From contig JADHLY010000005.1 of NCBI GenBank assembly GCA_016780385.1, forward strand, positions 1 through 64,000: DNA of 64,000 nucleotides, written 5' to 3'. This DNA comes from Flavobacteriales bacterium (lineage in GTDB: Bacteria; Bacteroidota; Bacteroidia; Flavobacteriales_D; Sanyastnellaceae). The position numbers and the translations under genes were made by a program. Shown piece by piece: positions 2,910-48,596 of the stretch (the first letter of the stretch is position 1; each line of letters starts with the position of its first letter). Under the pieces are notes generated by a model. That model saw only the letters and a program-made list of their open reading frames with translations, did no database searches and was not told the DNA's origin.

Positions 2910-3865
2910 GCCTTGATGCTGCGGGGATGGAAGCGCTCCATCTGGTCCCTCAGGAAGTTTTGATCCAAGTGGGTGTAGATCTCAGTGGTGCTCACCGAGC
3001 TGTGGCCCAACATCTCCTGAACGACGCGAATGTCAGCTCCGCTTTCCATGAGGTGGGTCGCAAAGGAGTGGCGGAAGGTGTGGGGGCTCACTTGCTTACG
3101 AATGCCTGCATCGTGGGCGGTCCGGCGCAACATGGTGAACACCATTTGTCGGGTCAGTTCCCGTCCCCGACGTCCGAGGAACAAGGTGTCTTCGTATCCG
3201 GCCTCAATTTCTACAAACCTGCGGTACTGCTCGATGTAACGCGAGATCGTATCCAGTGCAACTTCCCCGATGGGAATGATGCGCTCTTTGTTGCCCTTGC
3301 CAATGACCTTGACCATGCCCTCAACCTCATCGATACAGCTGAGGCGAAGGCCGACCACTTCGGAGACACGCAAGCCACAGCTGTACATGGTCTCCAGGAT
3401 GGCGCGGTTCCGAACACCTTCCTTGCGGGATAGGTCAATCGCTTCGATGATGGACTGGATTTCCTCAACACTGAGGACATCGGGCAATTTCCTCTCTGGG
3501 CGGGGAGAGTCGAGCAATTCGAGGGGGTCGCGCTCGAGGATGCCTTCCAACAACAGGTACTTACAGAAATTGCGCACGCCACTTAGGATGCGGCTCTGGC
3601 TGTTGCGGCTGAGGCCCTCATCAAAAAGTTGTGCGACGAATGCGTCTACGTGGATCGTCTCAAATCCCTTGGGGTCGAATTTGGGGTCTGCCAAGTTTTG
3701 GGCAAAGAAGGCCAGGCGCTGGACATCCCTCAAATAAGCTTCTACCGAGTTTGAGCTCAGTCCACGTTCGAGCTGAAGCCAAGACCTAAATCCACGCATA
3801 CAAGCTGTCCAGCCTGCCGCAGGGGGAAGGGAGTGGGCCTTGTTTGTGGTGGGTTCGTTGCTCAT
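2906..3865 (-). CDS. xerD: Tyrosine recombinase XerD
   Basis: Site-specific recombinase resolving chromosome dimers at dif with XerC. 319 aa with an N-terminal SAM-like core-binding domain (about 20-110) and a C-terminal catalytic domain. Catalytic residues are all present: Arg166 (SCGLRVSEV), Lys190 (VIGKGNKERIIP), His262/Arg265 (PHTFRHSFATHL), His288 (MLGHSSVST) and Tyr297 (EIYTHL). The length and the C-terminal LGHSSVSTTEIYTHL are typical of housekeeping XerD, not an integron or phage integrase, and no att-like repeats or phage genes flank it. It overlaps the downstream hydrolase by 4 nt. Confidence 0.92.
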   Translation of the reverse strand: MSNEPTTNKAHSLPPAAGWTACMRGFRSWLQLERGLSSNSVEAYLRDVQRLAFFAQNLADPKFDPKGFETIHVDAFVAQLFDEGLSRNSQSRILSGVRNFCKYLLLEGILERDPLELLDSPRPERKLPDVLSVEEIQSIIEAIDLSRKEGVRNRAILETMYSCGLRVSEVVGLRLSCIDEVEGMVKVIGKGNKERIIPIGEVALDTISRYIEQYRRFVEIEAGYEDTLFLGRRGRELTRQMVFTMLRRTAHDAGIRKQVSPHTFRHSFATHLMESGADIRVVQEMLGHSSVSTTEIYTHLDQNFLRDQMERFHPRSIKA

Positions 3866-16779: not shown

Positions 16780-16910
16780 TTGTGGAAACTATTTTGTATT
16801 CGTCGTGTTTCCTCGTTTGAGCCGATAAACATCGACGCTCTTGAGGTTTGGGGCTTTGATTGGTGCCCTTCCTTCTTGATAATGGCAGTGTCATTCCCCT
16901 GATTTGTGGG

Positions 16911-16931
16911 AAGGTGTATGATGTACACCTT
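16911..16931. promoter_or_regulatory. Inverted repeat upstream of the 16984 gene
   Basis: AAGGTGTA (16911-16918) and TACACCTT (16924-16931), a perfect 8-bp dyad around 5 nt, 53 bp before the start. It could be an operator or a 5'-leader hairpin. The rest of 16780-16983 shows nothing I recognise. Confidence 0.35.
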
Positions 16932-16983
16932 CTCTCGCTATATTGGCCGCGATTGTAGAAACCAAACTGTAACCACAAACACA

Positions 16984-19900
16984 ATGCGCAATATTTTGCT
17001 GCTCTTCATTGCTTTGTTCGGCTTCGGCTATGCACAAGCTCAAGATTGCACCGGAGCTGACCATACTGTCCTGGCCGGTAATTACTATTACAGCCCTTCT
17101 GCGCTGACGGTGACCGCTGGCGAGACCATTGCCTTCTTAAACGAAGGCGGCTTCCACAACGTGAATGGCGTTTCGAGTACACTTGGAGCCACATGGGGCA
17201 ATCCCGAGACGTTCTCGTTGGGTTCCAACAGCGGTTCTGCTGGAGGCGTGTGCATGGGCACAGTGACCTTGAACACTCCGGGAACATATCAGTATGACTG
17301 CAGCATTGGTTCACATGCTGCCAATGGCATGGTGGGTACGATTGTGGTGGAAGCGGCTGGCAGTGCCACACCTACAGACAATGCCGCTGATCCCACCTTG
17401 GATGCTGGAGATGTGGTCTCCATCTATGGAGGTGCGTACGATAACATTGCCAACAACTACAATCCATTCTGGGCTCAGTCCGGTACTGTGGATGAGGCTT
17501 ACGATCCCGGAACCGGGAATACTGTGTTGCAGTATGCCAACTTTAACTACCAGGGAACAGAGGTCTCATTGTCGGATTTGTCCGGTATGACCCACCTCCA
17601 CGTGGATGTCTGGGTGGCCGCCGGCAACGACCGGATGCTGAAGGTGACTCCTGTCAACAGTGGAACGGGTGCTGGCGAGTTCCTCGTAGAAGTTCCCCTC
17701 ACACCTGGTGCATGGAACAGCGTAGACCTGACCAAAGCCGCGTTTGAAGGCATGACTTGGGACGGCGTGTTCCAAATGAAGTTTGACGGTCAGTTCAATG
17801 CTGACGGCTCCGCCAATGGTGCGGGATGGGATGTTTATCTCGACAACATCTACTTCTGGAATGACGGCACGGGATCCGGGCCCCCATCAGGGGAAACGGT
17901 AGATGTGACGTTTACAGTGAACATGGAAAACGAGACCGTCTCATCTGATGGTGTGTCTTTGGCGGGAGGTGCCTATTTCGGATTTCCCGGAGACAACCCC
18001 ATGTCCGATAACGGCGACGGCACATGGTCTACGACCATTGCCGTTCCAGTGGGCTTCACCGGAAACTACACGTTTACGAATGGCGGTGCGGCCTGTGGCT
18101 GGAACTGCAAGGAGAACATTGCAGGGCTAGATTGCGCAGACGGTCCATTTGCCGACCGCTTGTTGAGCAACATCACCGAAGACACTACAATCAACACTTG
18201 TTTCGGAGAGTGTACTACGGACGGCTCTTGTTCAGCCCCTTCGACGCAATACAATGTGACCTTCCAAGTCGACATGTCCAATTCCGATTTGGATGGTACC
18301 GAAACGATTTATGTGACCGGTTCATTTGAAGGGTGGTGCGGTCCTTGTGACAACGTCATGACCGACAGTGGCAATGGCGTGTACACCCATACAGTGAGCC
18401 TCGATCCGGGGAGTTATGAGCACAAGTTCATGATCAATGCCTGGGGCGGTGACGAGCAGGCCATTTTGGGAACAGCTTGTGATTTCGTTCCTGGAGATGG
18501 TTTCGGCAACCGCGGTTTCGAAATCGTGGATGCAGACATCGTGCTGCCTGTGCAGTGCTTCGACTTCTGCGGCACTTGTGAAGAGCAGAACACCCAAGGG
18601 ACGGTGGACATTACATGGAATGTCAACATGTCCAATGAGGAGGTTTCTCCCGATGGCGTGCACCTTGCTGGTGGCGGCACATTCGGAAACCCCGGTGACA
18701 ATCCGTTGACCGACAATGGAGATGGCACTTGGTCTATTACAATGACACTGCCTGAAGGTGTTTCTAGCTACTACATCTTCACCAACGGTGGAGCTGCGTG
18801 CAGTTGGGGTTGTAAGGAGGACCTTACCGGTCTTCCTTGTGGTGATCCTGGAAACTTCAATGACCGTTATTTAGACAACATCACGCAAGACACTACATTC
18901 AATTTCTGCTTTGGAGAATGCGGCACAGACGGTGTCTGTGTAGGCGATGACGGCGGTGGCCCTACGGATCCTGCGGACAGCTTGGCAGTGACGTTTAACG
19001 TCGACATGAACAACTACGGCGGTACGTTTGGTTTCGTCAACGTTGCAGGCAGCTGGAATGACTTCTGCGCAGACTGCAACCAGATGACCGACGATGATTT
19101 GGATGGCATCTGGACAGCGACCATCAGCCTGCCTCTAGGAGAGAACTATCGCTACAAGTACCAGGTCGATTCTTGGGCCGATCAAGAAGATCTGGCCCCT
19201 GGTGACAACCCGGTGGGACCTTGTGTCGTCAAGGAAGGCGGTTTCACCAACCGCGATCTTGATGTTGCCGGAACAGAGGCCATTGATTTGGGCGTTGTAT
19301 GCTGGGGTTCATGTTGGGCCTGCATCGGCCAAGACGACGTGCCTGGATGTAATGACAGTGCAGCAGCGAACTACGATGAGGCTGCTACGGCCAATGATGG
19401 CACTTGTATCTACGACGTGACCTTCTCGGTCAACATGAGTGAGTATCCACTCAATGAATTGGACTCTGTGTATGTAAACGGCGAGTTCAATGGTTGGTGC
19501 GGTGCTTGCAACGCGATGTTGGATGAGGATGGTAACGGCATTTATGAGACGACCATTCCGTTGACGAGTGATTACTATGAGTACAAGTTCACGGTGAATG
19601 CTTGGAGCGCTGAGGAGAACCTCGCAGGTGCAGGTGGTTGTGTGACCGAGAACTTCGGGTTTACGAACCGTGTGCTTCAGTTGGCTACGAACCAAAGCCA
19701 GCCTGTCGTTTGCTGGAACAGCTGTTCCGACTGCGAAGGCGGTGGAGAGGTGTTCGGCTGTACCGATCAGGCAGCAACCAATTACAGTGACTTGGCTACT
19801 GACGACGACGGATCATGTACGTACATGGTCACCTTCCAGGTGGACATGAACGAATACGCCGGCAGCTTCAGTGCGGTCAATCTGAACGGAACATTCACCG

Positions 19901-20796
19901 GATGGTGTGGAGCTTGCGTTCCGATGACAGATGACGATGTCGATGGTGTTTATCAGGCGACTGTAGAGTTGACCGTGGGCACTGTGGAATACAAGTTCAC
20001 GGTTGATGGATGGGCGGACCAGGAGTACTTCTCTGAAGGTGCCGTTTGCACCTCTACCATTGATGGCTTCACCAACCGTTCCGTCGATGTCACCGGAGCG
20101 GCTACGCTTGACGTTGTGTGTTGGGCTTCCTGCTATGCATGCGATGTTGCTACGGGCTGTACCGACTCAGATGCTCAGAATTACGATGCAGACGCAGTGG
20201 CCGATGATGGATCTTGTTCTTACATCGTGACCATTCGTTTGGATATGACCACTTCTACATTGGGTGCAGGTGGTGTGCACATTGCAGGTTCTTTCCAAGG
20301 CTGGGATCCGGGCGCTACCGCCATGACCTCTCCAGGCTTGAACCTTTATGAGTACACCTTGCAGTTGTCCAATGGCGCTTACCAGTACATCTTCATCAAC
20401 GGCAACACTTGGGACGGTCAAGAGACGGTTCCAGCCGATTGCGGAGCAGACAATGGTCTGGGCGGCTACAACCGCGAGGTTGTTGTTGCTGGTTCAGATA
20501 TGACGCTGGATGTTGTGTGCTTCAACAGCTGTGAGGCATGCGCTGGTTGTACTGACCCATTGAGTGCAGAGTTCAGCCCATGGGCCGGATCAGATGATGG
20601 TTCTTGCGCTACGCCACTGGTGTTTGGCTGTACCTACCCAGACGCTGACAACTACAATGCTGCTGCGACTTCAGAGGATGGCACTTGCGTGTTCTCTGGC
20701 GCAAGCGACTGTCCAACGGACATCGACGGCGACGGCTCTACGGCTGTTGGTGACCTCTTGGTCATCCTCGGTGCCTTCGGACAGGCCTGCGAGTAA
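16984..20796 (+). CDS. Large secreted protein: cupredoxin, CBM-like domain, seven CBM-like repeats, Cys repeats, dockerin-like tail
   Basis: 1270 aa. Signal peptide MRNILLLFIALFGFGYAQAQ. Residues ~21-123 are a cupredoxin with all type 1 copper ligands: His58, Cys106, His111, Met116 (CSIGSHAANGM). A ~160-aa beta-sandwich follows (Trp/Asp-rich, ending WDVYLDNIYFW, as in carbohydrate-binding modules). Then seven ~105-aa repeats each start V-T-F-x-V-(D/N)-M and contain G-x-F-x-G-W and Y-x-Y-K-F, the form of CBM20/CBM48 or glycogen-binding folds; each has conserved Cys pairs. Five GCTDxxAxNY Cys units are interspersed. The C-terminus is DIDGDGSTAVGDLLVIL...CE. No T9SS domain. Predicted extracellular, glycan-binding and possibly redox-active. 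Confidence 0.82.
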   Translation: MRNILLLFIALFGFGYAQAQDCTGADHTVLAGNYYYSPSALTVTAGETIAFLNEGGFHNVNGVSSTLGATWGNPETFSLGSNSGSAGGVCMGTVTLNTPGTYQYDCSIGSHAANGMVGTIVVEAAGSATPTDNAADPTLDAGDVVSIYGGAYDNIANNYNPFWAQSGTVDEAYDPGTGNTVLQYANFNYQGTEVSLSDLSGMTHLHVDVWVAAGNDRMLKVTPVNSGTGAGEFLVEVPLTPGAWNSVDLTKAAFEGMTWDGVFQMKFDGQFNADGSANGAGWDVYLDNIYFWNDGTGSGPPSGETVDVTFTVNMENETVSSDGVSLAGGAYFGFPGDNPMSDNGDGTWSTTIAVPVGFTGNYTFTNGGAACGWNCKENIAGLDCADGPFADRLLSNITEDTTINTCFGECTTDGSCSAPSTQYNVTFQVDMSNSDLDGTETIYVTGSFEGWCGPCDNVMTDSGNGVYTHTVSLDPGSYEHKFMINAWGGDEQAILGTACDFVPGDGFGNRGFEIVDADIVLPVQCFDFCGTCEEQNTQGTVDITWNVNMSNEEVSPDGVHLAGGGTFGNPGDNPLTDNGDGTWSITMTLPEGVSSYYIFTNGGAACSWGCKEDLTGLPCGDPGNFNDRYLDNITQDTTFNFCFGECGTDGVCVGDDGGGPTDPADSLAVTFNVDMNNYGGTFGFVNVAGSWNDFCADCNQMTDDDLDGIWTATISLPLGENYRYKYQVDSWADQEDLAPGDNPVGPCVVKEGGFTNRDLDVAGTEAIDLGVVCWGSCWACIGQDDVPGCNDSAAANYDEAATANDGTCIYDVTFSVNMSEYPLNELDSVYVNGEFNGWCGACNAMLDEDGNGIYETTIPLTSDYYEYKFTVNAWSAEENLAGAGGCVTENFGFTNRVLQLATNQSQPVVCWNSCSDCEGGGEVFGCTDQAATNYSDLATDDDGSCTYMVTFQVDMNEYAGSFSAVNLNGTFTGWCGACVPMTDDDVDGVYQATVELTVGTVEYKFTVDGWADQEYFSEGAVCTSTIDGFTNRSVDVTGAATLDVVCWASCYACDVATGCTDSDAQNYDADAVADDGSCSYIVTIRLDMTTSTLGAGGVHIAGSFQGWDPGATAMTSPGLNLYEYTLQLSNGAYQYIFINGNTWDGQETVPADCGADNGLGGYNREVVVAGSDMTLDVVCFNSCEACAGCTDPLSAEFSPWAGSDDGSCATPLVFGCTYPDADNYNAAATSEDGTCVFSGASDCPTDIDGDGSTAVGDLLVILGAFGQACE

Positions 20797-31030: not shown

Positions 31031-31066
31031 CTACATGTGCAGTGCCCTATGGACTATTTTGCCCCC

Positions 31067-32986
31067 ATGAAAACCAAAGCGCTCAAGTTCTTCGCGGGTG
31101 GCGGTCTTTTGGCTGCGTCTAGTCTCGTTGCCGCTCAAGTCTGTCCAGATGGCCAAAGCCCCTTTGAAATGGTGGTGTACACCGACAATTGGGGATATGA
31201 GGTGTATTGGGAGATGACGCCGGCTGAGACGCCTTGCGGAACCAATACACTCGCTTGGGGTGGCAATGCCATTGGCGTGGGGTGCAGCGGTGACGGCGAC
31301 CCCGAGGCGCCAGCGGGCGAGTACGCCTCCAATGCCACATTCGTCATTGACTCTTTGTGCGCTACCCCAGGAGAGGTGGTCACGCTGCACTACGTGGACA
31401 GCTATGGAGACGGCGGGACCTACTTTGAAATTCGGCTTGACGGCGTCATCCACCATGCGTTTCAGGGGACTGGAGGGGGAAATTCATGGGAATTTGACCC
31501 TTTTGAGTCGGCATTCCCAGTGTACGATTCTCCCTGTGGTGCCCTGCCCATTGAAGTCGATGGTGAGGTTGTGGTGTTGTCCAATGACAGCTGCTCGGCA
31601 TCTCTCGGTGAGCCAGGACCTCCTGACTTTCCCGGAGTGTATGCCTGCCAAATTGCAGGAGGGTGGTGCGAAGGAGGTGTAGGGGCTTCTGCTTGGCTTT
31701 CTTTCGAGGCGACGTCCGGGAACTGCAGGATCTCATCCTGCACGGACTCCACAGATTTTGATACCCAACTGGCCCTATGGGCAGTCGAGGATTGCGGCGA
31801 CTTTGAGTCCTACACTTTGATGGGAGCCAACGACGACATTCCCGGAGGCTGCGGACCCGGCAACGTTTATTCCAGTGCGCTGTGGACCGGGTGCCTTGAC
31901 AGTGGCGTCACTTACCTGATTCAACTTGATGGTTGGTACGGTTCAAGGGGGACGGCGGGCATCTTCATCGAGTCTGTAGACACGGAGGAGGTCATCACAA
32001 GCGCCACAGGAGGGCTTTCTTGCGCTTTGGGCAAGGAGGAAGACCCCAACGGCACCATTGTACTGAATCCTGTGGGCATGGGCTCAGGTTTTACCGCTGC
32101 TTGGGTCGGGCCCAATGGGTTCTCTGGAGAAGGCCAGCAGATCAGTGGGCTGACTGCGGGAACCTATTCCGCCGTCGTCGTATCCAATTGCGGGGGGAGC
32201 CTGGTCCATACCGTGACCTTGACCGAACCGGCTCCCATTTCAACCAACCTTGAAGTGGTGCCGCCGTTGTGCCCCGAGCTTGCAGATGGTTCAGCGTCAT
32301 TGGCCGTTGAGGGGGGCACGGAGCCTTATACCATCACATGGTTCGGCGAGGCGGGTGAGCTCGGCACAGGCGCGGTCATTGAGGGCTTGGCTGAGGGTGA
32401 ATACGCGTTCACCATGGAAGATGGGAATGGCTGCCAAGAAGACCAGAGCTTCAGCATTGAGGCCAACGACGACGCCTTTGCCTTCAGCTTAGGACCTGAC
32501 ACCACCTTTTGTGAAGATGAGCAGGTCATATTATCGGGCCCGGTCGGGTTGGAATACCTCTGGAGTACGGGCAGCATTGATCAGTTTATCATCGTCAACG
32601 GGTCCGAATGGGGACCGGGCACTTATCCCATTGTGCTGGAAGCGTCCAATGAATTCGGATGCTCCCACTCGGATGCCATTTTCTTGACCATTTTTGATTG
32701 CACCACTGGAATCGGAGACCTTTTTGGTGGCAGTGCAGGCTTGGCGGCTTTTCCCAATCCAGTCGCGGGTCAAGGGGCTTGGAACCTCACGTGGGAAGCG
32801 CCTTCCCAACGGTGGGACGGAGAGTGGGAGCTCATTGATCTTGCAGGCAGGACTGTGCAGCAAGGCCGCAATCCGCTCAACGCTGGAGCATGGACTTTGG
32901 CGCTTCCAACCGATGGATTGGCTCCGGGTCAATACTTCTGGCTGGCAAAGGGCACCCCAGTGTCCCTGCGCTTGCAGCTCAATTGA
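31067..32986 (+). CDS. Secreted multidomain protein, T9SS type A cargo
   Basis: 639 aa. Signal peptide ([17 protein letters not shown]) from MKTKALK. Residues ~25-150 resemble a Cys-containing beta-sandwich also found at the start of the 36670 protein ([14 protein letters not shown] compares with YGDGLVGDAFYQVWLDG there). A PPC-like domain follows (about 165-310, [16 protein letters not shown]), then two SprB-like repeats ([36 protein letters not shown]). The end is a T9SS type A sorting domain ([16 protein letters not shown] ... [11 protein letters not shown]). No catalytic motif seen; adhesin-like. Confidence 0.8.
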
Positions 32987-34091: not shown

Positions 34092-36425
34092 ATGATTGCA
34101 ATTTGGAAAACCGCCAGCGCCGCAGTGCGTCAGGCGACCTGCGTGCTGATGGCTGTGTGCTTGACCTTCAGTGTACAAGCGACCGAAGGAATGTGGATTC
34201 CGGCCTTGCTGAAGGCCGTGGAGGGCGACATGCAGGACATGGGCCTGAAATTGACCGCAGAAGACATCTATTCCATCAACCGGAGTTCGCTCAAGGACGC
34301 CATCGTCCAATTTGGTGGCGGCTGCACGGCCAGCGTGATTTCCGATCAGGGACTGTTGCTGACCAATCACCACTGCGGCTATGGACAGATCCAATCGCAC
34401 AGCAGCTTGGAGCGTGACATCTTGAAGGATGGGTTCTGGGCCATGTCGATGGAAGAAGAATTGACAAATCCTGGACTGACGGCCATGTTCATCGTGCGGA
34501 TCGAAGACGTGACCGAGGCCGTACAGCAGGCGCGGTTGGAAGGGGAGGACGCCGAAAAAGCCAAGCGCGAAGCGTTGGCTACGGCTGCTACGGAAGGCAC
34601 GGACCATGACGCCGTGGTGCGGGATTTTCTGTATGGTAACCAACAGTTCCTCATCGTCACACGGACGTTTAAGGATGTGCGCCTGGTGGGCGCTCCACCG
34701 AGTTCCATCGGCAAGTTTGGTGGGGACACCGACAATTGGGTGTGGCCGCGCCACACGGGCGATTTCTCCTTGTTCAGGATTTACAGTGGTCCGGATGGTG
34801 CTCCTGCGGAGCCCAGCGAGGACAACATTCCACTGGATCCAGCGCACCATTTGCCCGTATCCATGCATGGCGTTGAAGAGGGGGATTTCACCATGGTGTT
34901 TGGATTTCCCGGGCGCACCGAACGGTACATCCCTGCGCTCCAGGTGCAGCACTTGATCGAAACGTTGAACCCGACCCGAATCGGAATGCGCACCGCTAGC
35001 TTGGAGGTGATCAACAGCGCCATGCGGGCCGATGATGGCACCCGCATTGCCTATGCCGCCAAACAAAGCCGCATTGCCAATGCCTGGAAAAAGTGGATTG
35101 GCCAGAATGAGGGCTTGATTGATTTCGGAGCCGTAGCGGAAAAGCGACAGGCCCAAATCGCCCTCGCGAAAGCGGTGCGTGAGCGTGGTTTGGACGATTA
35201 CAGCACAGTAGTGGGCGACCTCAGCAAAGACTTCAAGGCATTGCGACCATACCTCGAGGCGCGGTCGTTGTTCATCGAGTGGTTTTACTACGGGCCGGAG
35301 ATTTTACGCTGGGCCGCACAGGTTGGGGATGTACTTGAGGTGGCGGCAGATAAATCGTTGTCAGACAGTATTTTCAATGCGCGCGCAGGAGAAGTTCTGG
35401 AAGCGGCAAAGGGGTTCTATCCCGACTACAGGGCGGAAGTGGACCGCAAGGTGTTTGCCGCGGTCTTTCCGCTCTATATGGACGCCTTGCCCGATGGGTT
35501 TGCGCCCGACGTGGCGGCCGCGACTTGGGCACTTTCTGCAGAGAAGGATGCCAGCGACATTGCGCGGGACCTATATGAAGGCAGCATCCTCGACGACGGC
35601 GATGAGTTCATGGCCTTGCTCGAGGCCCGTGACCGCAAGGCTTTGAAAAAACGCGCCAAGGACCCCTTGATCGAATGGGCGCGACAAACCAACGACAGTT
35701 ATTGGGGGAAAGTCCGCGACGAATACAGCCGGCTTCAGTCCGCCATGGAGGAAAACATGGGCCGATACCTCCGCGCTCTATCCGAGGTCTATCCCGAGCA
35801 GACGTTCTGGCCTGACGCCAACAGCACGCTGCGGTTGACATACGGCATGATGGAGGGCAGTGAGCCCCGCGATGCGGTCACCTACAAGCCCTATACCACC
35901 GCCGGTGGGGTGCTGGATAAGTACGTTCCTGGCGACGCTGAGTTTGACCTGCCTGAGGGCCTCGTCACCAAGCTGCGTGCAGAAGAATACGGGCCTTATG
36001 CAGACAGCGAGGGCAATCTGCGGGTGTGTTTCCTTGGATCCAACCACACCACGGGCGGCAATTCAGGGTCTCCAGCCATCAACGGCACGGGAGACCTCAT
36101 CGGGTTGAATTTCGATCGCACTTGGGAAAGCACCATGAGCGACGTGCGCTTCGATGCGGACCGCTGTCGCAACATTATGGTGGACATCCGCTACGTGTTG
36201 TGGGTGACCGATATCTATGCGGGTGCCTCACACCTGGTCCAGGAGATGACCCTGACAGAAAGAGATCCCGACAACCTGAGTCCCGCCTGGCGCCCATTTG
36301 GCCCTGGCACTGGAATGGGCAAGGGCATAGAACGGAGTGAAGAAGAAGTCCGTGAGGAATTCAGGAAGCGCTCCTTGGAGCGCATGCAGGAGCGCCGACA
36401 GAAGATGGAAGCAGGGGGGCAGTAA
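34092..36425 (+). CDS. S46 dipeptidyl-peptidase, DPP11-type (Asp/Glu-specific)
   Basis: 777 aa with signal peptide (VLMAVCLTFSVQA). Family S46 serine exopeptidase releasing dipeptides in the periplasm. Chymotrypsin-like triad: His in TNHHCGYGQ (91-99), Asp224 in WPRHTGDFSLF, Ser658 in TGGNSGSPAING. The residue 18 positions after the Ser is Arg676 (GLNFDRTWE). In Porphyromonas this position is Arg in DPP11, conferring P1 Asp/Glu specificity, and Gly in DPP7, so this copy should prefer acidic P1 residues. That suits a proteome whose secreted proteins are extremely Asp-rich. Full length. Confidence 0.93.
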   Translation: MIAIWKTASAAVRQATCVLMAVCLTFSVQATEGMWIPALLKAVEGDMQDMGLKLTAEDIYSINRSSLKDAIVQFGGGCTASVISDQGLLLTNHHCGYGQIQSHSSLERDILKDGFWAMSMEEELTNPGLTAMFIVRIEDVTEAVQQARLEGEDAEKAKREALATAATEGTDHDAVVRDFLYGNQQFLIVTRTFKDVRLVGAPPSSIGKFGGDTDNWVWPRHTGDFSLFRIYSGPDGAPAEPSEDNIPLDPAHHLPVSMHGVEEGDFTMVFGFPGRTERYIPALQVQHLIETLNPTRIGMRTASLEVINSAMRADDGTRIAYAAKQSRIANAWKKWIGQNEGLIDFGAVAEKRQAQIALAKAVRERGLDDYSTVVGDLSKDFKALRPYLEARSLFIEWFYYGPEILRWAAQVGDVLEVAADKSLSDSIFNARAGEVLEAAKGFYPDYRAEVDRKVFAAVFPLYMDALPDGFAPDVAAATWALSAEKDASDIARDLYEGSILDDGDEFMALLEARDRKALKKRAKDPLIEWARQTNDSYWGKVRDEYSRLQSAMEENMGRYLRALSEVYPEQTFWPDANSTLRLTYGMMEGSEPRDAVTYKPYTTAGGVLDKYVPGDAEFDLPEGLVTKLRAEEYGPYADSEGNLRVCFLGSNHTTGGNSGSPAINGTGDLIGLNFDRTWESTMSDVRFDADRCRNIMVDIRYVLWVTDIYAGASHLVQEMTLTERDPDNLSPAWRPFGPGTGMGKGIERSEEEVREEFRKRSLERMQERRQKMEAGGQ

Positions 36426-36669: not shown

Positions 36670-39105
36670 ATGCTAATCCGAGTCAGCCTCCTGTTTTCTC
36701 TGTTTGCCTTTGCTCCTCTTTTTGGGGCGGCCCAAGAGCCCTGTGAAGAAGGTCAACACACTTTCTCAGTGGTGATTTCTCCGGACTCCTGGCCGGGCGA
36801 GATGAGTTGGGTTCTGACCAATGGCGATGGCGATTTGCTGTTGGAAGCAGACGTGCAGAATGCCGCTGATACGCTCTACACCTTTTGTATTGATGCCGCT
36901 GATTGGGAAGACTGTATGGTCTTCACGATGAACGACACCTATGGCGATGGCCTCGTTGGAGATGCGTTCTATCAGGTTTGGCTAGATGGTGACATGCTGG
37001 TCGAAGGCAGTGGCAATTATGGATTTGGCCAGTCCCACGCCATTGATTGTCCCCCAGGTTGGACCTGCAATGAGGCCATTGAACTCAACCTGGGAGACGA
37101 TCCGATCACGGTCTCAGCCTCGGGCAATGTCGAGTGGTGGACGTTTACCCCTGCTGAGAACGGCATGTACGCCTTGTCGAGTTGTGGTTCAGGCTGTGAT
37201 ACACGGCTTTGGGTCTACGACTACTGCAACATGAACAACTTCGACGACACCAACGAAGGGTCCATCTATTACGATGACAATCAGGGCAGTTGTGAGGACA
37301 ACGAAGAGAGCGCCCAGCTTTATGTCCTGCTCGAAGGCGGTGTGACGTATTGGGTGCGCTTCGCCAACCTAGCAGGCGATTGTGGAGGATTTGATTGGAC
37401 GCTGGCCTACGGCGGCCCTGCAGAGGGGTGCATGGATGAGACCGCATGCAACTACAATCCTGCTGCGGAAGTCGATAACGGCAGCTGCATCTATCCCGGC
37501 GACCCGCTGTGCACTGGTCCGGACCTCATGGTGGTCGAAAGCGCCATCGAGAACAGCCTGCAGGCCGAGACGATGATGGTGGACGAGGACAACTGCTACA
37601 TCGTAGAGGGGTGTCTCAACGGCTATGGCGAGCGTGAGCTCGTCCGCTTCACTACCCACATCAAGAACATTGGCGACATCGATTACTACATCGGCACCAC
37701 CGCCCAAAGCGATACGACCGAGCAGTTCGAGTGGGGCGATTGCCACAACCACTGGCACTACAAGGGCTATGCGAAGTATGACCTGTTCACCATGGACGGC
37801 CAGATGCTGCCCATCGGCTTCAAGAACGGCTTCTGCGTCATGGACCTCGAGTGTAGCGATGGCGGTACTTTTCAGTACGGCTGCAGCAACATGGGCATTT
37901 CTGCCCATTGTGGCGACATTTATGGGGCGGGCCTTTCCTGTCAATGGATTGACGTCACAGGCATTCCAGACGGGGTGTACCACTTGGTGGTGCGGGTCAA
38001 TTGGGACTACAGCCCAGATGCCCTCGGTCGACAGGAAAACGATTACGAAAACAACTGGGGGGTCGTCTGCATCCAAATGGACCGCTCCTCAGGAGAATTG
38101 GCGGTCGAAGTGTGGGACGATTGTGACCAGCTCGTCGATTGCAACGGAGAGGCATACGGAACGGCGCAAATGGACTGCATGGGCGATTGTGGCGGAACGG
38201 CCTTGATGGGCGACCTCGACCTCGACGCCGACCAGGATTTGACCGATGCCGAAGCCTATGTGGACGGCATTCTCGGCAATGACCTGAGCCCCATGCCGTG
38301 CAACGACCTGGATCAGGATGGCGAACTAACAGTATCAGACGCGGCCCTCATGGCGCGTTGCCAGTTTTGGGATATGGCGCATGACCACCCGGACAGCGCC
38401 GGTTTCCACGACAAGTGTCAATTCCCCGCACCCCATGTGATCAATCCCTACGACAGCGTCTGGTTTTCCTTGGGGGAGGTCAATTGGGAGCAGGGCTTCT
38501 TTGATGTCCAGGTCCTGAATCCCCACAACCGCATTTTGGGGTACCAGTTCGATGTGAGCTGTGGCATTCAACAGGTGGTCAGCATGGTTGACCCGATTGA
38601 GTACATGATCCAGCCTGAGTTCGCCTTGGGGGGCAACACTGTCATTGGTTTGAGCTACGAAAACGCATCCATGTCCAAGCACTACGAGTGGACGACACTT
38701 TGCCGCATATACTGGACTGAAGCCCCCGCAACGGAGCTTTGCATCAACGGTATCACGGAGGTGGTCAACAGCATGTACCAGAATGCCGTGCCGTACCTCG
38801 TCGATCCATGCACCACGGTCAATGGAATCGGTGGCGTGCTCGCAGGTTCTGTGCTCCAGGTCAACCCTAACCCCGTGCAGGCGGGCGAGTCCCTGGTCTT
38901 GAATTTCTCTGGAGGATCCCTCGCTGGTGCCGAAGTGCGCTGGTTGGATTTGACAGGTCGCTTACTGGGAAAGACGCGCTGGACGGGCGCCGAGCGCTTC
39001 ATGCTCGGAACCGATGGGCGTCCTGCGGGCAGCTATCTGATTCAGGTGGTACAGCGGACCGCAGGTGGCGACATCCTGCATACCCGTCGGGTCACCGTGC
39101 GCTGA
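36670..39105 (+). CDS. Secreted lysyl-oxidase-like enzyme with dockerin and cohesin-like modules, T9SS type A cargo
   Basis: 811 aa. Signal peptide, a Cys-rich beta domain, a PPC-like domain (to ~248), one Cys unit (GCMDETACNYNP), then a lysyl oxidase domain (~283-475). Copper ligands CHNHWHY (His359, 361, 363); Lys385 (GFKNGFCVMDL) and Tyr418 (CGDIYGAGLSCQWIDVT) match the Lys320/Tyr355 pair that forms the LTQ cofactor of human LOX, with similar spacing (33 here, 35 there). Also NDYENNWGVVC, equal to the SDYTNNVVRC of LOX. Next come a type I dockerin (GDLDLDADQDL, NDLDQDGELTVSDAAL), a cohesin-like beta-sandwich (~595-715) and a T9SS type A domain (VNPNPVQAGESL). Predicted extracellular copper amine oxidase; substrate unknown. 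Confidence 0.88.
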   Translation: MLIRVSLLFSLFAFAPLFGAAQEPCEEGQHTFSVVISPDSWPGEMSWVLTNGDGDLLLEADVQNAADTLYTFCIDAADWEDCMVFTMNDTYGDGLVGDAFYQVWLDGDMLVEGSGNYGFGQSHAIDCPPGWTCNEAIELNLGDDPITVSASGNVEWWTFTPAENGMYALSSCGSGCDTRLWVYDYCNMNNFDDTNEGSIYYDDNQGSCEDNEESAQLYVLLEGGVTYWVRFANLAGDCGGFDWTLAYGGPAEGCMDETACNYNPAAEVDNGSCIYPGDPLCTGPDLMVVESAIENSLQAETMMVDEDNCYIVEGCLNGYGERELVRFTTHIKNIGDIDYYIGTTAQSDTTEQFEWGDCHNHWHYKGYAKYDLFTMDGQMLPIGFKNGFCVMDLECSDGGTFQYGCSNMGISAHCGDIYGAGLSCQWIDVTGIPDGVYHLVVRVNWDYSPDALGRQENDYENNWGVVCIQMDRSSGELAVEVWDDCDQLVDCNGEAYGTAQMDCMGDCGGTALMGDLDLDADQDLTDAEAYVDGILGNDLSPMPCNDLDQDGELTVSDAALMARCQFWDMAHDHPDSAGFHDKCQFPAPHVINPYDSVWFSLGEVNWEQGFFDVQVLNPHNRILGYQFDVSCGIQQVVSMVDPIEYMIQPEFALGGNTVIGLSYENASMSKHYEWTTLCRIYWTEAPATELCINGITEVVNSMYQNAVPYLVDPCTTVNGIGGVLAGSVLQVNPNPVQAGESLVLNFSGGSLAGAEVRWLDLTGRLLGKTRWTGAERFMLGTDGRPAGSYLIQVVQRTAGGDILHTRRVTVR

Positions 39106-42086: not shown

Positions 42087-45000
42087 TTACATGTTGCGGC
42101 GGTAAGCACCGCCCACTTCAAACAAAGCTTCAGTCAATTGGCCCAATGAGCATGACTTCACCGCTTGCATCAATTCGACAAACAGGTTGCCGTGTGCGAC
42201 TGCAGTGGCTTTCACCTGGCCCACCGCATCGCTGGAGTCGGATTCAAAGGCGCTGTGCATAGCACGCAAACCGTCAATTTGGGCCTGCTTTTCCTTTGCC
42301 GTGGCCCGGATGACTTCTCCAGGCACCAGGGTGGGGGACCCCTCCTTGGACAGGAAGGTGTTCACGCCAATGATGGGGTATTCACCGGTATGCTTCAAGG
42401 TTTCGTAGTGCAGGGACTCCTCTTGAATCCGGCTGCGCTGGTACATCGTTTCCATGGCGCCGAGCACGCCTCCGCGTTCGGTCAAGCGGTCGAATTCGAC
42501 CATTACGGCTTCTTCTACCAGGTCCGTCAGCTCTTCGATGATGAACGCGCCTTGGAGCGGATTTTCGTTTTTGGCCAGGCCGAGTTCGCGGTTGATGATC
42601 AATTGGATGGCAATGGCCCTCCGCACACTGCCTTCGGTTGGCGTCGTGATCGCTTCGTCGAATGCATTGGTATGCAATGAATTGCAGTTGTCGTAAATGG
42701 CATAGAGCGCCTGAAGCGTCGTGCGGATGTCGTTGAAGTCGATTTCCTGGGCATGCAACGAGCGGCCGCTCGTTTGGATGTGGTACTTCAACTTCTGGGC
42801 CCGCTCATCGGCGCCGTACTTCCGGTCGAGGGCCTTGGCCCAAATGCGGCGTGCGACCCGACCGATCACGGCATATTCGGGGTCGATGCCGTTGGAGAAG
42901 AAAAAGCTGAGGTTGGGTCCGAACGCATTGATGTCCATTCCTCGGCTCAGGTAATACTCCACGTAGGTGAAGCCATTGGCGAGGGTGAAAGCGAGTTGGG
43001 TAATGGGGTTCGCACCGGCCTCTGCGATATGATAGCCGCTGATGGACACCGAATAGAAATTCCGGACGCTGTGTTCGATGAAATAGGCCTGTACATCTCC
43101 CATGAGCCTCAAGGCAAATTCCGTGGAGAAGATGCAGGTGTTCTGGGCCTGGTCCTCCTTGAGGATGTCGGCTTGTACAGTTCCGCGCACCTGAGACAAT
43201 GCCTCGGCGGCCAATTGCTGATAGGTGCCTGGATCGAGGACTTCGTCACCGGTGCAGCCGAGCAGCATCAGTCCAAGGCCATCGTTGCCATCGGGCAACT
43301 CTCCGCGATAGCCGGGCCTCTCCAGTCCACGGTCATCCCAGCGCGCCTTGAGCACTTTCTCAACGGCGCCTTCCAGTTTGTGGACGCGGATGTGTTTCTC
43401 GCAGCGCTGATCAATGGCCGCATTCAGGAAAAATGCGAGGACCATGGGCGCTGGGCCGTTGATGGTCATGGACACACTGGTCGACGGGTCACACAGGTCA
43501 AACCCGCTGTACAACCGCTTGGCGTCATCGAGGCAAGAGACGCTGACCCCTGAGTTTCCAACTTTGCCTTGAATGTCAGGCCGGAGGTCTGGGTCGCGTC
43601 CGTAAAGGGTAACTGAGTCAAACGCTGTAGACAGCCGCTTGGCGGGCATGTCCGAACTGACGTAGTGGAACCTGCGGTTCGTCCGCTCCGGACCGCCTTC
43701 TCCGGCAAACATCCGGGTGGGGTCTTCTCCTTCGCGCTTGAACGGATAAATGCCCGCGGTAAATGGGAAGGAGCCCGGCAGGTTTTCCTGCAGGCCCCAG
43801 CGCAGCAAATCTTGCCAGCCTTGGAGTCGGGGCACACTGACCTTGGGAATGGCCTGGTGACTCAGGCTCTGTGAGGTCGTAGGAATACGGATTTCTCGCC
43901 CCCTGACCTCGAAGATGTATTCCTCTTGGCGGTAGCGGTCAGCTTCAGCAGGCCATGATTCCAGCCAATGGAGATTCTTGGGGTCGAGTTCGCGGGTCAA
44001 AGCCTCGGCCTTGGCATGCAGGGCTTCTTGGGCCTCAGGTGCATCAGACAACTCTCCTGCGGCTTTTTGGACCACTTGAAGCCTTCCGGCCACTTCTGCC
44101 TGCGCTGCTGTCCACTCATTGTAACCGCGCACCGTGTCGGCGATTTCGCTCAAGTAGCGCGTGCGTTTGGGAGGGATGACGTGCACCTTTTCACTGTCCC
44201 CCGCTTCAGCGCCAAAAGTGCTGGCCAAATCTGCACCGGTCTGCTCCGCGAGGGCATTCATCAACGTGCGGTACAGCCTGTGGGTGCCCGGGTCGTTGAA
44301 CTGTGACGCAATGGTCCCAAAGATGGGCAGGCTGCCGTCCTCGGCCTCCCACAATTCGTGGTTGCGCTTGTATTGCTTGCGCACGTCGCGCAGGGCATCG
44401 GCCCCGCCGCGCTTGTCAAACTTGTTGATGGCCACCACGTCGGCGAAGTCGAGCATATCGATTTTCTCGAGCTGTGTCGCTGCCCCGAATTCAGGGGTCA
44501 TCACATAGAGGGCCACATCGCTGTGGTCCATGATTTCGGTATCGCTTTGGCCGATGCCGGAAGTCTCCAATACGATGAGGTCGAAGCCGGCCACCTTGAG
44601 AATGTCCAGGGCGTCTCCCACATGGCGGCTAAGGGCAAGGTTGGATTGGCGCGTCGCCAAGGAGCGCATGTAGACGCGGTCAGAAGCGATGGCGTTCATG
44701 CGGATTCGGTCGCCCAACAAGGCGCCACCGGTTTTGCGTTTGGACGGATCCACTGATACAATGGCCATCCGCTTGTCCGTGAAGTCGAGCAGGAAACGGC
44801 GGACCAGCTCATCGACCAAAGAACTCTTGCCGGCGCCACCTGTACCGGTAATGCCCAGCACGGGGACTTGGGCTGTTTGGGCGGCTTTGCGGATGCCCTC
44901 CAAAATGCCGGCGTAACTATCGGCAGCCACTTCAGCTGCGGTGATCAGTCGGGCCAGATCGCCGGGTTGCTGTTGCGAGATGCGGTCGGCTTCACCAGCA

Positions 45001-45476
45001 GGCTGGTCCACGACGGGAAAGTCACAGCGGCGAATGACGTCGTCAATCATCCCTTGCAGACCCAGTGCGCGTCCGTCGTCGGGATGGTAAATGCGTTCGA
45101 TGCCGTATTCCTGAAGTGCTTTGATTTCCTCGGGGAGGATGGTGCCACCGCCACCGCCAAAAATGCGGATATGACCTGCGCCGCGTTCGTCGAGCAGGTC
45201 CTTCATGTATTTGAAGTACTCCATGTGCCCCCCTTGGTAGGAGGTCATGGCAATGGCCTGAACGTCTTCTTCGATGGCGCAGTTGACCACTTCATCCACC
45301 GAACGGTCGTGTCCGAGGTGGATGATCTCACAGCCTGAGCGCTGAAGGATGCGCCGCATGATGTTGATGGCTGCATCGTGCCCATCGAAGAGGGAGGCCG
45401 CGGTGACGATGCGGATGGGATGACCGGATCGTCGGGCAGCAGTGGTCGGTACGTCTTGTGGTTGAGAGGATTCCAT
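42087..45476 (-). CDS. icmF: IcmF, fused isobutyryl-CoA mutase with G-protein chaperone
   Basis: 1129 aa, the fused coenzyme-B12 mutase. Order: B12-binding domain (residues ~20-150, [10 protein letters not shown] with the Co-ligand His), MeaB-like GTPase chaperone (P-loop [10 protein letters not shown] at ~211-220, [18 protein letters not shown]), then the substrate-binding mutase barrel ([38 protein letters not shown]). This order is specific to IcmF rather than methylmalonyl-CoA mutase. It isomerises isobutyryl-CoA and n-butyryl-CoA and sometimes isovaleryl/pivalyl-CoA. Start ATG 45476 rather than TTG 45524; a -7 box lies 21 bp upstream. Followed by two overlapping genes. Confidence 0.93.
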
Positions 45477-45497
45477 GCGCGTTTCAATGGAGCACCC

Positions 45498-45505
45498 CAA
45501 AGTTA
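45498..45505 (-). promoter_or_regulatory. -7 box of icmF
   Basis: Exact TAACTTTG on the minus strand, 21 nt before ATG 45476; a TTG lies 16 bp upstream. Confidence 0.5.
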
Positions 45506-45554
45506 GCCCAGGCGGTGAGGCCAAGGCACGGCTTCAGAGGGTCTCTACAGCGGA

Positions 45555-48500
45555 TTATTGACAGGGGTCTCCAAACAGACCGAGCATCATAAGCAAGTCG
45601 TTGACGCTCACGATGCCATCGGCGTCGACATCGGCCGGTCCACAATCCGCGATGCAGCCAAAAACGCTCAATGCGATGAGCAAGTCGCCGACATCGTGGA
45701 CGCCGTTATCGTTGGCATCCCCCAGACAGAAGCCGCTCGGAGAAACACAGCCCGATGCGGTTGCGGCCACATTGTGGCGGTCCTCGTTGGTGACTTCAGC
45801 CGAGGCTGTGAGACAAATGTCTTCACCAGCTTCAGTGAAGTGCAGGCGCACCAGAGGCTGCGGCAGTGTGCTTTTGTGGATGAGGCTGTCCTCAAGCGCC
45901 ACGCCGAAGGCCATGCCACCCGCAGAAAGGTGGAAGTAATGCTGGTAGCCGGTGGTGTCGAAGAGGGGGGTGACGTCGGTAAACGTCGCGCCCTCCAATT
46001 GAACCGACCATCCGCTCAGCCATGTCTGCGGGTTTTGGACATACAGGTCGACAAAGCCAGAGTCCTCGTGCATCATCATGAGGCTGAAATCGACCTGCTG
46101 GTCGGGAACCACCAAGGTGCCGTTCCAATCGCAATGGTCCTCAATACCGTTGTCTCCGAAGTGGTTGTGGCCATAGTGGGCGCAATCGGCGGCCAAGGCC
46201 ACGTCGGTCACGCTCAGGGTGCCGTCGCTGTTGAGGTCAACGCAAGGCGCCGCGGTTTCCACACCATCGATGACCAAGTCCGCATAGAGCAGGGGGTCAT
46301 CCGCATCGACTTCGCCATCTTGATCGAGGTCTCCTTTGGTCAGATACCCGGGGCAGTTGCCCGCACAATCCGGCTCTTCGTCGCCATATGGATGCCCGAG
46401 GCAATCCACAGGGACGTCACAATCATCGTATTTCTCAAAGTTGATGGCTTGCCCGTCTCCGTTGCGCTCGAAGGAGAAACACACGGCCACGGCGTTGTTG
46501 GCGTAGTTCAATTCGAAACTGCCATTGGCATCGGGACTGTAGTCCCAGTTGACGCGGATGACCAAGGTGTAGTCGCCCCCCGGAAGGTCGGTGATGTCCA
46601 CCCATTGGCAGTCGAGGTAACGGGAGTAGATGTCCTGGCAACCTGCTGTGATGCCCATGTTGGAGCAGGTGTATTTCTGTGGGCCTCCACCATAGTTGCA
46701 GCCGCCGAGGTCCAGCACGCAGAAGCCGTTTTTGAATCCGATGGTCGGCAGCGGAGAGCCGCTGTCGTCGAAAAGGGCATACTCGGCATAGCCTTCGTAG
46801 TGATAGTGGTTGTGACAGGCGTCCCACTCGAACTGATCGGGCTGGGCTGAGGGCGCACCGATGAAATAGTCTTCGGTGCCGATGTTGGCGATTTCGGTGT
46901 CGAAGCGCACAATTTCCCGGGTGCCATACCCTTGAATGCACCCCTCGGCGATCATGCACGCATCACTGTTGCTCTCGGTGGTCATCTCCAGCGTGCTGTA
47001 TGCCCGCAATCCATTGATGATGAGGTCCGGTCCGATGTTGGGGCATTCAGGATCTCCGGCGAGATAGCAGGTGTCCGGGGCTGTGGCAATGGGGAGGTAG
47101 TTGCAGGCTTCAATGTTCATGCAGCCGAGCACCCCACCGAGGTATTCCACTTCGAATGGGATGCCCCCTGCTCCGCTGTTGCAATCACCGTCACCTTCGA
47201 TGCGGATGTAAATAGTCTCGCCCGCGATGAGCACGGGGGTCACCTCGCTTTGCAAGCCGCAGTCGTCGTCCGACATGGTGATGAAGGCCTCTGAAGAGGT
47301 CTCAAACACCGCCATGTCGCAGTAGTCGTAAAGGTGGATGCGGGTGTCGCACGTGGTCAATCCGCAGGTAGAGAACCGATACTGCCCCGTCGTGTCGACC
47401 GGGAGGTAATACCATGTGTCGGAGAGGGGGGCGACCAGCGATTGCACCCCGCCTTCCGCCGAAATCTCAAGCCCAATCGGGTCGTCACATCCACTGCCCT
47501 CCGGACAGCCGATGAGCGTGAGTTGGGCCGCGTCGAAGTGTTCTCCGTCGCGGAGGATGTTGCCGTCGTATCGGATTTGATAGGTGCCTCCTATCGAAAA
47601 GCCGTCGGCACCGGCATCGAAGAGCCATACAGATAGGCACCCGGTGGGCACACAGACATCGAGGCCTTCTGCTCCGCCGGAGTAGAGCGTGTCCCCGTCT
47701 TCATTGGTGACTGCAAATGAGGTTTCTTGAGGAAAGCTGTCGGGCGTAATGTCAATCTCAAGCCGGTGCAGGTTCTCGCCGACATCTAGGGTGGCCATGT
47801 TGATGGATGTCGAGCTGCCGTCATCTCCCACGGTAAGGGTGATCTCGTAGGTGCCGGCATCTTCCCAAGTGACCACCGGGCTGGCCGCCGCGCTCGTGGC
47901 CGGAGTACCGCCTTCAAAAGTCCAAGCGTAGGTGACCACGTTTCCGATGCTGAGGTCCGTGAATTGGGCCGTCAGTGGCAGGCCGCAATTGGAAGCCCAA
48001 TTAAACCCGGCAGAAAGCTCCGGGTAGTTGCAGCTTCCATCATCGGCCATGGCACAGGCGTCGTAGTTCAGCGCGGCCGGGTCGGTGCACCCGGGGTTGT
48101 CGCCTTCTGCACAAGGTCCAATGAGGTCAAGGGTCATCCCGTAATCACTCAAGCCGCCTGAATTCCAGGCATTCATAACCTCCACGAGCCAGCATCCTGA
48201 TCCGGATAGGCCATAACCGTCGAGGTCGGTGATGGAGGCGGAGTAGGTGCCGTCGGCTGAAGTATTCCAAGAAGGGGGCCAACCACCGGCCTCCACATAG
48301 CCGAAATCGACATTGTAACCACCGACTTCGATGCGGTTGCCATTGGGTGCCGTGATGGCGAGCGCCATATCGCCGGGCCAATTGCTCCCCGGTGCTTCGA
48401 ACTCAAGGGTGATGTCGAAGCCCTCGAGTGCGCAACCGGCCGTGAAGTCAATGCTCGCCGTCTGCGATCCCGAAAGGCTTCCCGCCCACACGATTTGCGT

Positions 48501-48596
48501 GGTGTCCTGGGCCGCCAAGCGACCGCTGACCATGGTGGCCAAAGTCGAGGCGAACAGAAGGAGGCATAGGCGGCAGCAAGAACCGAGTGTCTTCAT
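45555..48596 (-). CDS. Secreted lysyl-oxidase-like enzyme 2 with P-domain, PKD, PPC, dockerin and cohesin-like modules
   Basis: 1013 aa. Signal peptide; P-domain-like sandwich (~45-160, GSNWPGDMALAITAPNG); Cys unit; PKD domain (~192-272, VVTYAWTFEGGTP); Cys-rich beta domain; PPC domain (~370-485); second Cys unit; lysyl oxidase domain (~520-712) with CHNHYHY (His595, 597, 599), Lys622 (GFKNGFCVLDL) and Tyr657 (CQDIYSRYLDCQWVDIT), so the copper site and LTQ residues are kept. Then a dockerin (GDLDQDGEVDADDP, VDLNSDGTLSVTDVAL), a cohesin-like sandwich (~834-950) and a terminal double dockerin-like tail (DANDNGVHDVGDLL, DVDADGIVSVNDLL ... CQ). No T9SS domain, unlike its paralogue at 36670. Confidence 0.87.
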   Translation of the reverse strand: MKTLGSCCRLCLLLFASTLATMVSGRLAAQDTTQIVWAGSLSGSQTASIDFTAGCALEGFDITLEFEAPGSNWPGDMALAITAPNGNRIEVGGYNVDFGYVEAGGWPPSWNTSADGTYSASITDLDGYGLSGSGCWLVEVMNAWNSGGLSDYGMTLDLIGPCAEGDNPGCTDPAALNYDACAMADDGSCNYPELSAGFNWASNCGLPLTAQFTDLSIGNVVTYAWTFEGGTPATSAAASPVVTWEDAGTYEITLTVGDDGSSTSINMATLDVGENLHRLEIDITPDSFPQETSFAVTNEDGDTLYSGGAEGLDVCVPTGCLSVWLFDAGADGFSIGGTYQIRYDGNILRDGEHFDAAQLTLIGCPEGSGCDDPIGLEISAEGGVQSLVAPLSDTWYYLPVDTTGQYRFSTCGLTTCDTRIHLYDYCDMAVFETSSEAFITMSDDDCGLQSEVTPVLIAGETIYIRIEGDGDCNSGAGGIPFEVEYLGGVLGCMNIEACNYLPIATAPDTCYLAGDPECPNIGPDLIINGLRAYSTLEMTTESNSDACMIAEGCIQGYGTREIVRFDTEIANIGTEDYFIGAPSAQPDQFEWDACHNHYHYEGYAEYALFDDSGSPLPTIGFKNGFCVLDLGGCNYGGGPQKYTCSNMGITAGCQDIYSRYLDCQWVDITDLPGGDYTLVIRVNWDYSPDANGSFELNYANNAVAVCFSFERNGDGQAINFEKYDDCDVPVDCLGHPYGDEEPDCAGNCPGYLTKGDLDQDGEVDADDPLLYADLVIDGVETAAPCVDLNSDGTLSVTDVALAADCAHYGHNHFGDNGIEDHCDWNGTLVVPDQQVDFSLMMMHEDSGFVDLYVQNPQTWLSGWSVQLEGATFTDVTPLFDTTGYQHYFHLSAGGMAFGVALEDSLIHKSTLPQPLVRLHFTEAGEDICLTASAEVTNEDRHNVAATASGCVSPSGFCLGDANDNGVHDVGDLLIALSVFGCIADCGPADVDADGIVSVNDLLMMLGLFGDPCQ

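Follow-up and report, generated by a model that had tools for sequence, protein, structure and literature searches.

A predicted type IX-exported lysyl oxidase with docking-type domains and a second, separate lysyl oxidase nearby in a Flavobacteriales genome

The role of lysyl oxidase (LOX) in bacteria was posed as a question by one study of 2015 (PMC4448552) and by another of 2019 (PMC6452851). The locus described here poses that question in concrete form. Within the window, by which we mean the whole 64,000-nucleotide stretch of the Flavobacteriales contig under analysis, an intact open reading frame at 36670-39105 (+) encodes a protein of 811 residues, here called loxA. The original prediction took it for a LOX that is mounted on the cell surface and that, together with a paralogue nearby, cross-links a matrix of Cys-repeat proteins. 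Is loxA a genuine member of the family, where would it act, and on what?

Family membership and catalytic residues

By profile, residues and predicted fold, loxA is a true member of the lysyl oxidase family, as originally proposed. The search with PF01186 (Lysyl_oxidase) that had been suggested as a check returned a significant match rather than none: the score of 104.8 bits exceeds the curated cut-off of 20.4 about fivefold (E=6.4e-30), which excludes a chance match, and the match covers profile positions 48-193 of 204. Human LOXL2 (5ze3) is the sole sequence match of loxA in a phmmer search of all PDB chains (E=1.8e-19), and the same structure fits the modelled catalytic domain (Z=19.8; Table 1). 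All three motifs quoted in the original prediction are present in the intact reading frame. A TPQ copper amine oxidase and a LodA-type lysine oxidase were considered and rejected: the Pfam domains of these enzymes are absent, and no Pfam entry other than PF01186 matches loxA up to E=1.

Alignment with LOXL2 places H359, H361 and H363 at the copper site, and K385 and Y418 at the positions of the lysine and tyrosine that form the lysine tyrosylquinone (LTQ) cofactor, so that the copper site and LTQ residues are intact, as had been claimed. The His triad and the Lys/Tyr pair are conserved in essentially all relatives of loxA's group. The spacings given at that time are likewise correct, with 26 residues from the first His to Lys and 33 from Lys to Tyr; the corresponding values in LOXL2 are 27 and 36. 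Ten cysteines of loxA (C309, 315, 358, 389, 395, 405, 414, 424, 467 and 485) are equivalent to those of the five LOXL2 disulfides; eight of them match LOXL2 C573, C579, C625, C657, C663, C673, C685 and C695 residue by residue, and C467 and C485 occupy the place of the fifth disulfide, matched by position only. The outer His of animal LOX (LOX H289), which is missing from bacterial LOX in general (PMC4448552), is absent from loxA too. The second LOX of the window, loxB, keeps the catalytic residues and the cysteines, with the C663 equivalent displaced by a few residues. Among distant matches, one copy (L061) lacks some of the cysteines and retains the His, Lys and Tyr residues; four others (L033, L071-L073) are degraded or partial only.

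From these residues, quinone formation and enzymatic activity are predicted for loxA. A Lys/Tyr pair lying too far apart in a predicted structure had been named as grounds for refutation; such a distance is no valid test, because the pair is 16.6 Å apart in the crystal of the LOXL2 precursor and yet the enzyme forms LTQ (PMC9180022).

Domain architecture and predicted export

An AlphaFold2 model of loxA, computed from 36 orthologues (mean pLDDT 75, pTM 0.46), is good inside domains, uncertain between domains and weak at the active-site loops, where pLDDT is about 52-67. The signal peptide ends in GAA before a Gln residue, which fits the Q-rule for signal-peptide cleavage in Bacteroidetes (PMC5837995). 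Ahead of the Cys repeat and the catalytic domain, the model contains a beta-sandwich like the collagen-binding domains of Hathewaya ColG; the likeness is one of fold only, and no function follows from it.

Behind the catalytic domain lie a pair of calcium-loop/helix motifs and a second beta-sandwich. The dockerin of the original prediction stands as a dockerin-like motif pair: PF00404 (Dockerin type I) matches 2 of the 36 close orthologues and also the relative L052 at residues 747-795, just after its LOX domain and hence at the place equivalent to the loxA pair. It falls short in that loxA itself has no PF00404 match. The cohesin-like sandwich is backed by the fold of the model (pLDDT mostly 75-92 in this domain); a Pfam cohesin match was not found in loxA. 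CopC appeared at rank 43 among the structure-comparison matches of the model.

The last 85 residues adopt, in the model, the fold of a type IX secretion system (T9SS) type A sorting domain, and the C-terminal domains (CTDs) of PorZ and PorU are also among the structure matches. The type A profile TIGR04183 is weak in loxA itself (13.6 bits vs a cut-off of 23), and PF18962 is matched by 25 of the 36 orthologues. T9SS machinery is encoded in the genome (SprA_N, E=2e-152), with a PorP/SprF gene inside the window, and about 37 further type A tails occur in the genome. The modelled CTD fold, the orthologue matches and the T9SS genes all support the export route named in the original prediction, and we infer that loxA is exported by the T9SS, with a predicted location at the surface.

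An exported protein encoded at 16906-20796 in the window carries a plastocyanin-type copper domain (PF00127), several domains like those that bind starch or glycogen, and a dockerin-like tail. Cu-binding_MopE motifs (PF11617) are numerous in the LOX relatives L052, L059, L060 and L066, with up to 17 stretches in L060; the name suggests copper, and these may instead be calcium loops.

Table 1. Features of the two lox genes and of their surroundings in the window
Feature	Position	Strand	Basis
SprB-repeat protein, exported, T9SS-like tail, conserved in same island	31037..32986	+	PF13573; synteny; 0.8% Lys
Peptidase S46 (Dpp7-like dipeptidyl peptidase), directly upstream of loxA	34092..36425	+	PF10459 E=8e-214
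loxA, predicted exported lysyl oxidase, 811 aa	36670..39105	+	ORF; PF01186 E=6.4e-30
Signal peptide of loxA, MLIRVSLLFSLFAFAPLFGAA	36670..36732	+	Read from sequence; helix 2-19 in model; cleavage before Gln
ColG-like beta-sandwich, aa 128-247	37051..37410	+	VIA-align Z=11.3, rmsd 2.5, 103 aligned, 12% identity (Hathewaya ColG collagen-binding domains)
Cys repeat of loxA, GCMDETACNYNPAAEVDNGSC	37426..37488	+	Read from sequence
LOX catalytic domain, aa 281-488	37510..38133	+	LOXL2 5ze3 Z=19.8, rmsd 3.1, 194 aligned, 30% identity (model)
Copper-site His triad, H359-N-H361-W-H363	37744..37758	+	Aligned with LOXL2 H626/H628/H630
K385, LTQ lysine	37822..37824	+	Aligned with LOXL2 K653; invariant in 36 orthologues
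Y418, LTQ tyrosine	37921..37923	+	Aligned with LOXL2 Y689; invariant in 36 orthologues
Dockerin-like motif pair, about aa 514-570	38209..38379	+	Calcium-loop/helix motifs DLDLDADQDLTDAEAY and DLDQDGELTVSDAA; helices 521-535, 555-570 in model
Cohesin-like beta-sandwich, aa 591-721	38440..38832	+	Cellulosomal cohesins Z 10.0-10.4, about 3 Å (model)
T9SS type A C-terminal sorting domain, aa 727-811	38848..39102	+	Mirolase CTD 8qb1 Z=11.5, rmsd 1.7, 26% identity (model)
IcmF (fused isobutyryl-CoA mutase), 30 bases 3' of loxB	42087..45524	-	NF045497 1748.6 bits; synteny
loxB, second lysyl oxidase, 1013 aa, N-terminal PKD domain	45555..48596	-	PF01186 E=8.3e-31; PKD_4 E=2.5e-10; catalytic residues intact
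Dockerin-like EF-hand C-terminal tail of loxB	45558..45749	-	31 matches in own genome, itself included
LOX domain of loxB	46452..47051	-	PF01186 match

Two lox lineages, their distribution and their neighbours

A second LOX nearby had also been foreseen, correctly: loxB lies 6.45 kb from loxA, and the two are the only LOX copies in this 84%-complete genome. They are not the recent doubling that the word paralogue may imply. In a tree of 124 bacterial LOX domains, loxA and loxB fall into different well-supported groups and thus into separate old lineages, with loxB grouping with larger PKD-bearing proteins from other genera. Those PKD-bearing relatives occupy the loxB site, with a pseudouridine synthase before and IcmF after, and loxA orthologues occupy the loxA site, preceded by the S46 peptidase. 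The simplest reading of these sequences is an old LOX pair in one island, one or other member of which would have been lost in most genera and both retained here. Nor are both copies mounted alike, as had been supposed, for loxB is without a type A tail and ends in a dockerin-like tail instead. LOX tails, assigned from the length after the LOX domain together with the end sequences, are of these two kinds, T9SS type A (T9A) or dockerin-like EF-hand (EF). The EF-hand tail occurs in two separate parts of the LOX tree, and many other proteins of the window's genome share it, with about 30 matching places; PF00404 is found at the C terminus of the loxB-type relatives L050 and L058. In one genus member (L047), loxB (688-3742, -) is split over two frames, by an assembly error or in a broken gene.

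LOX is common in the host's family but rare across its phylum. Of the 17 genomes of the window's genus, the window's own included, 15 carry LOX (the two LOX-less genomes are each under 70% complete); so do 16 of 20 other genomes of the family, 7 of 23 from elsewhere in the order, where some matches are weak or partial, and 4 of 395 sampled across the phylum. A scan of 84,980 species genomes yielded 359 LOX-matching stretches, of which the best 80 come nearly all from uncultured Flavobacteriales, Crocinitomicaceae or unplaced Bacteroidetes, with some from Saprospiraceae. No LOX was found on viral contigs, and plasmids gave one match (Gemmatirosa, 31% identity). Two PBNL01 contigs labelled 'Euryarchaeota archaeon' (L101, L129) bear LOX of the Flavobacteriales type, and the island of L129 is also of that type; they are probably mislabelled bins, and a trap for claims of archaeal LOX.

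Among the neighbours, the S46 peptidase precedes lox on the same strand in all 17 loci analysed from the T9A-tailed group. IcmF is a syntenic marker, probably with no functional link to loxB. Outside the window's genus, all 42 evaluable T9A-tailed loci have a same-strand gene directly 3' of lox, with a product of about 1020 residues. In the two copies scanned this product contains LTD, chitobiase-C-like, CotH and CHU_C domains; judged by them, it is a T9SS-exported protein of the CotH-kinase family. The loci with this arrangement are L085-L092, L103, L106, L111-L119, L123-L126 and L128-L147. That position lacks the gene in the window's genus (0 of 11, after loxA), among EF-tailed loci (0 of 15) and at six distant loci, and CotH has no match in the window's own genome. 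A PDB sequence search with the CotH-family protein gave zero matches. In Bacillus, CotH is a kinase of spore-coat proteins (PMC7821199). Co-occurrence of CotH and lox by presence alone was rejected as a signal: CotH is found in 57 of 60 relatives, most often with several copies each, and so only the adjacency is informative. That adjacency hints that the two act jointly on exported proteins, but inherited gene order could account for much of it. In part of the EF-tailed group (L093 5595-7097, L097, L098, L110 and L113), a glucose/sorbosone dehydrogenase, which represents another quinone-type enzyme family, lies directly upstream of lox on the same strand; PF07995 was identified in the L093 gene.

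Substrates, rival readings and known systems

As the target of cross-linking, the matrix of Cys-repeat proteins put forward in the original prediction is not supported. The exported Cys-rich proteins of the window contain 0.3-0.9% Lys, compared with about 2-7% in most other proteins, which places them among the lysine-poorest encoded there and rules them out as a lysine-rich matrix. At this Lys content, multi-site cross-linking of exported proteins encoded nearby is unlikely, and the Cys-repeat proteins are not likely to be the bulk substrate. Arginine, too, is strongly depleted in the exported Cys-rich proteins. The loxA protein has seven Lys in all, and its own Cys repeat has none. LOX-driven depletion of lysine, as self-protection, was weighed and rejected. 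The exported-to-cytosolic Lys ratio is 0.17-0.63 in nine genomes with LOX and 0.27-0.64 in five without, a small sample tied to family, and across these 14 genomes the exported proteins are low in Lys and Arg alike, whether or not the genome encodes LOX. Since the depletion includes Arg and the ratios of the family's two LOX-free genomes lie in overlapping territory, lysine depletion is a general trait of exported proteins with no clear LOX signature. In collagen, the targets of lysyl oxidase are few, specific lysines; by analogy, loxA could act on a few specific lysines as well.

We consider it fairly probable that loxA is an exported LTQ/copper amine oxidase at the cell surface that modifies amines of selected extracellular proteins. 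It would make its own LTQ cofactor from K385 and Y418, leave the cell via Sec and the type IX system, and then be anchored at the surface or released. There it would act on primary amines, of which the likeliest are particular lysine side chains on surface or matrix proteins, and convert them to aldehydes, with ammonia and hydrogen peroxide as by-products; the aldehydes could go on to covalent cross-links. Proteins, rather than small amines, would be its substrates. The loxB product would be another such enzyme; its lineage is older, and the dockerin-like tail replaces the type A signal.

That copper ligands, Lys, Tyr and Cys are retained across the aligned relatives, down to about 40% overall identity, makes it most improbable that the LOX domain has turned into a binding or structural module without quinone formation, even if the literature found reports no LOX activity from Bacteroidota. 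The characterised archaeal LOX shares these residues and has lysyl/amine oxidase activity that is sensitive to BAPN; its specificity is relaxed, and it oxidises small amines in addition to peptides (PMC6452851). This breadth lends some weight to a scavenging or defensive amine oxidase that draws nitrogen and hydrogen peroxide from small amines, polyamines or the lysines of foreign peptides and leaves the producer's own matrix uncross-linked. The lysine-poor exported proteins of the producer, the somewhat lower exported-to-cytosolic Lys ratios in the sampled LOX-bearing genomes and the peroxide-stress gene yaaA in the same conserved island point the same way. However, the depletion extends to Arg, the family's two LOX-free genomes have ratios that overlap the range, yaaA may be in the island by chance, and the cohesin-like, dockerin-like and other beta-sandwich domains suggest siting beside macromolecules, so we hold scavenging or defence to be rather unlikely. 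Action on the material of other organisms, such as algal or animal matrix proteins or detritus, whereby the cell would be anchored or particles loosened, seems to us less likely still. It draws on the ColG collagen-binding fold in loxA (Z=11.3) and on the origin of the relatives as environmental metagenome-assembled genomes, but the ColG-like domain shares only 12% identity and its fold also occurs in bacteria outside collagen binding.

A bolder extension of the favoured reading, that of a surface oxidase of selected extracellular proteins, is that in part of one Flavobacteriales family LOX and the tandem-encoded CotH-type kinase, both T9SS cargo, modify the same surface proteins, with cohesin-dockerin contacts bringing dockerin-tailed proteins to the oxidase, as a bacterial counterpart of LOX-based matrix maturation; we offer it as speculation with a slim chance of being right. 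The group provides a tractable setting for bacterial LOX: the enzyme is common in one family, is joined to domains for export and protein docking, and has conserved neighbours, namely the S46 peptidase and, in many loci, the CotH-family kinase. Should the native substrate prove to be a surface protein, this would establish lysyl-oxidase chemistry on extracellular protein beyond the eukaryotes.

In the literature searched, which took in a minority of subscription papers, we found no description of a multidomain, T9SS-linked LOX with its neighbours, and no relevant paper joined LOX with the T9SS or with a CotH kinase. Of the known systems, human LOXL2 (5ZE3) shares with loxA the whole catalytic domain at 30% identity, the His triad, the LTQ Lys and Tyr and the five-disulfide cysteines, whereas loxA lacks the SRCR domains and the outer His and bears cohesin-like, dockerin-like and T9SS domains. 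Cellulosomal cohesins and dockerins resemble loxA in the fold of residues 591-721 and in the paired calcium loops of dockerin type, a likeness drawn from predicted fold and motifs, but no scaffoldin is seen here. Bacillus CotH belongs to the same Pfam family as the exported protein adjoining lox in most relatives (PMC7821199); the lox-adjacent protein differs in being T9SS-exported with lamin-tail and CHU_C domains, and it is missing from the locus in the window's genus. The Haloterrigena turkmenica LOX (PMC6452851) is likewise prokaryotic and has the catalytic residues, but it is archaeal, is without T9SS and cohesin-like parts, and is of broad specificity. The enzyme itself is not new, since bacterial LOX, including those of Bacteroidetes, were reported by Grau-Bove et al. 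in 2015 (PMC4448552), with the same family, the same residue pattern and the outer His missing. Nearly all prokaryotic LOX of that set consist of the LOX domain alone, with or without a signal peptide or transmembrane segment; by contrast, the proteins described here are multidomain with a T9SS tail, come in two lineages side by side and have conserved neighbours.
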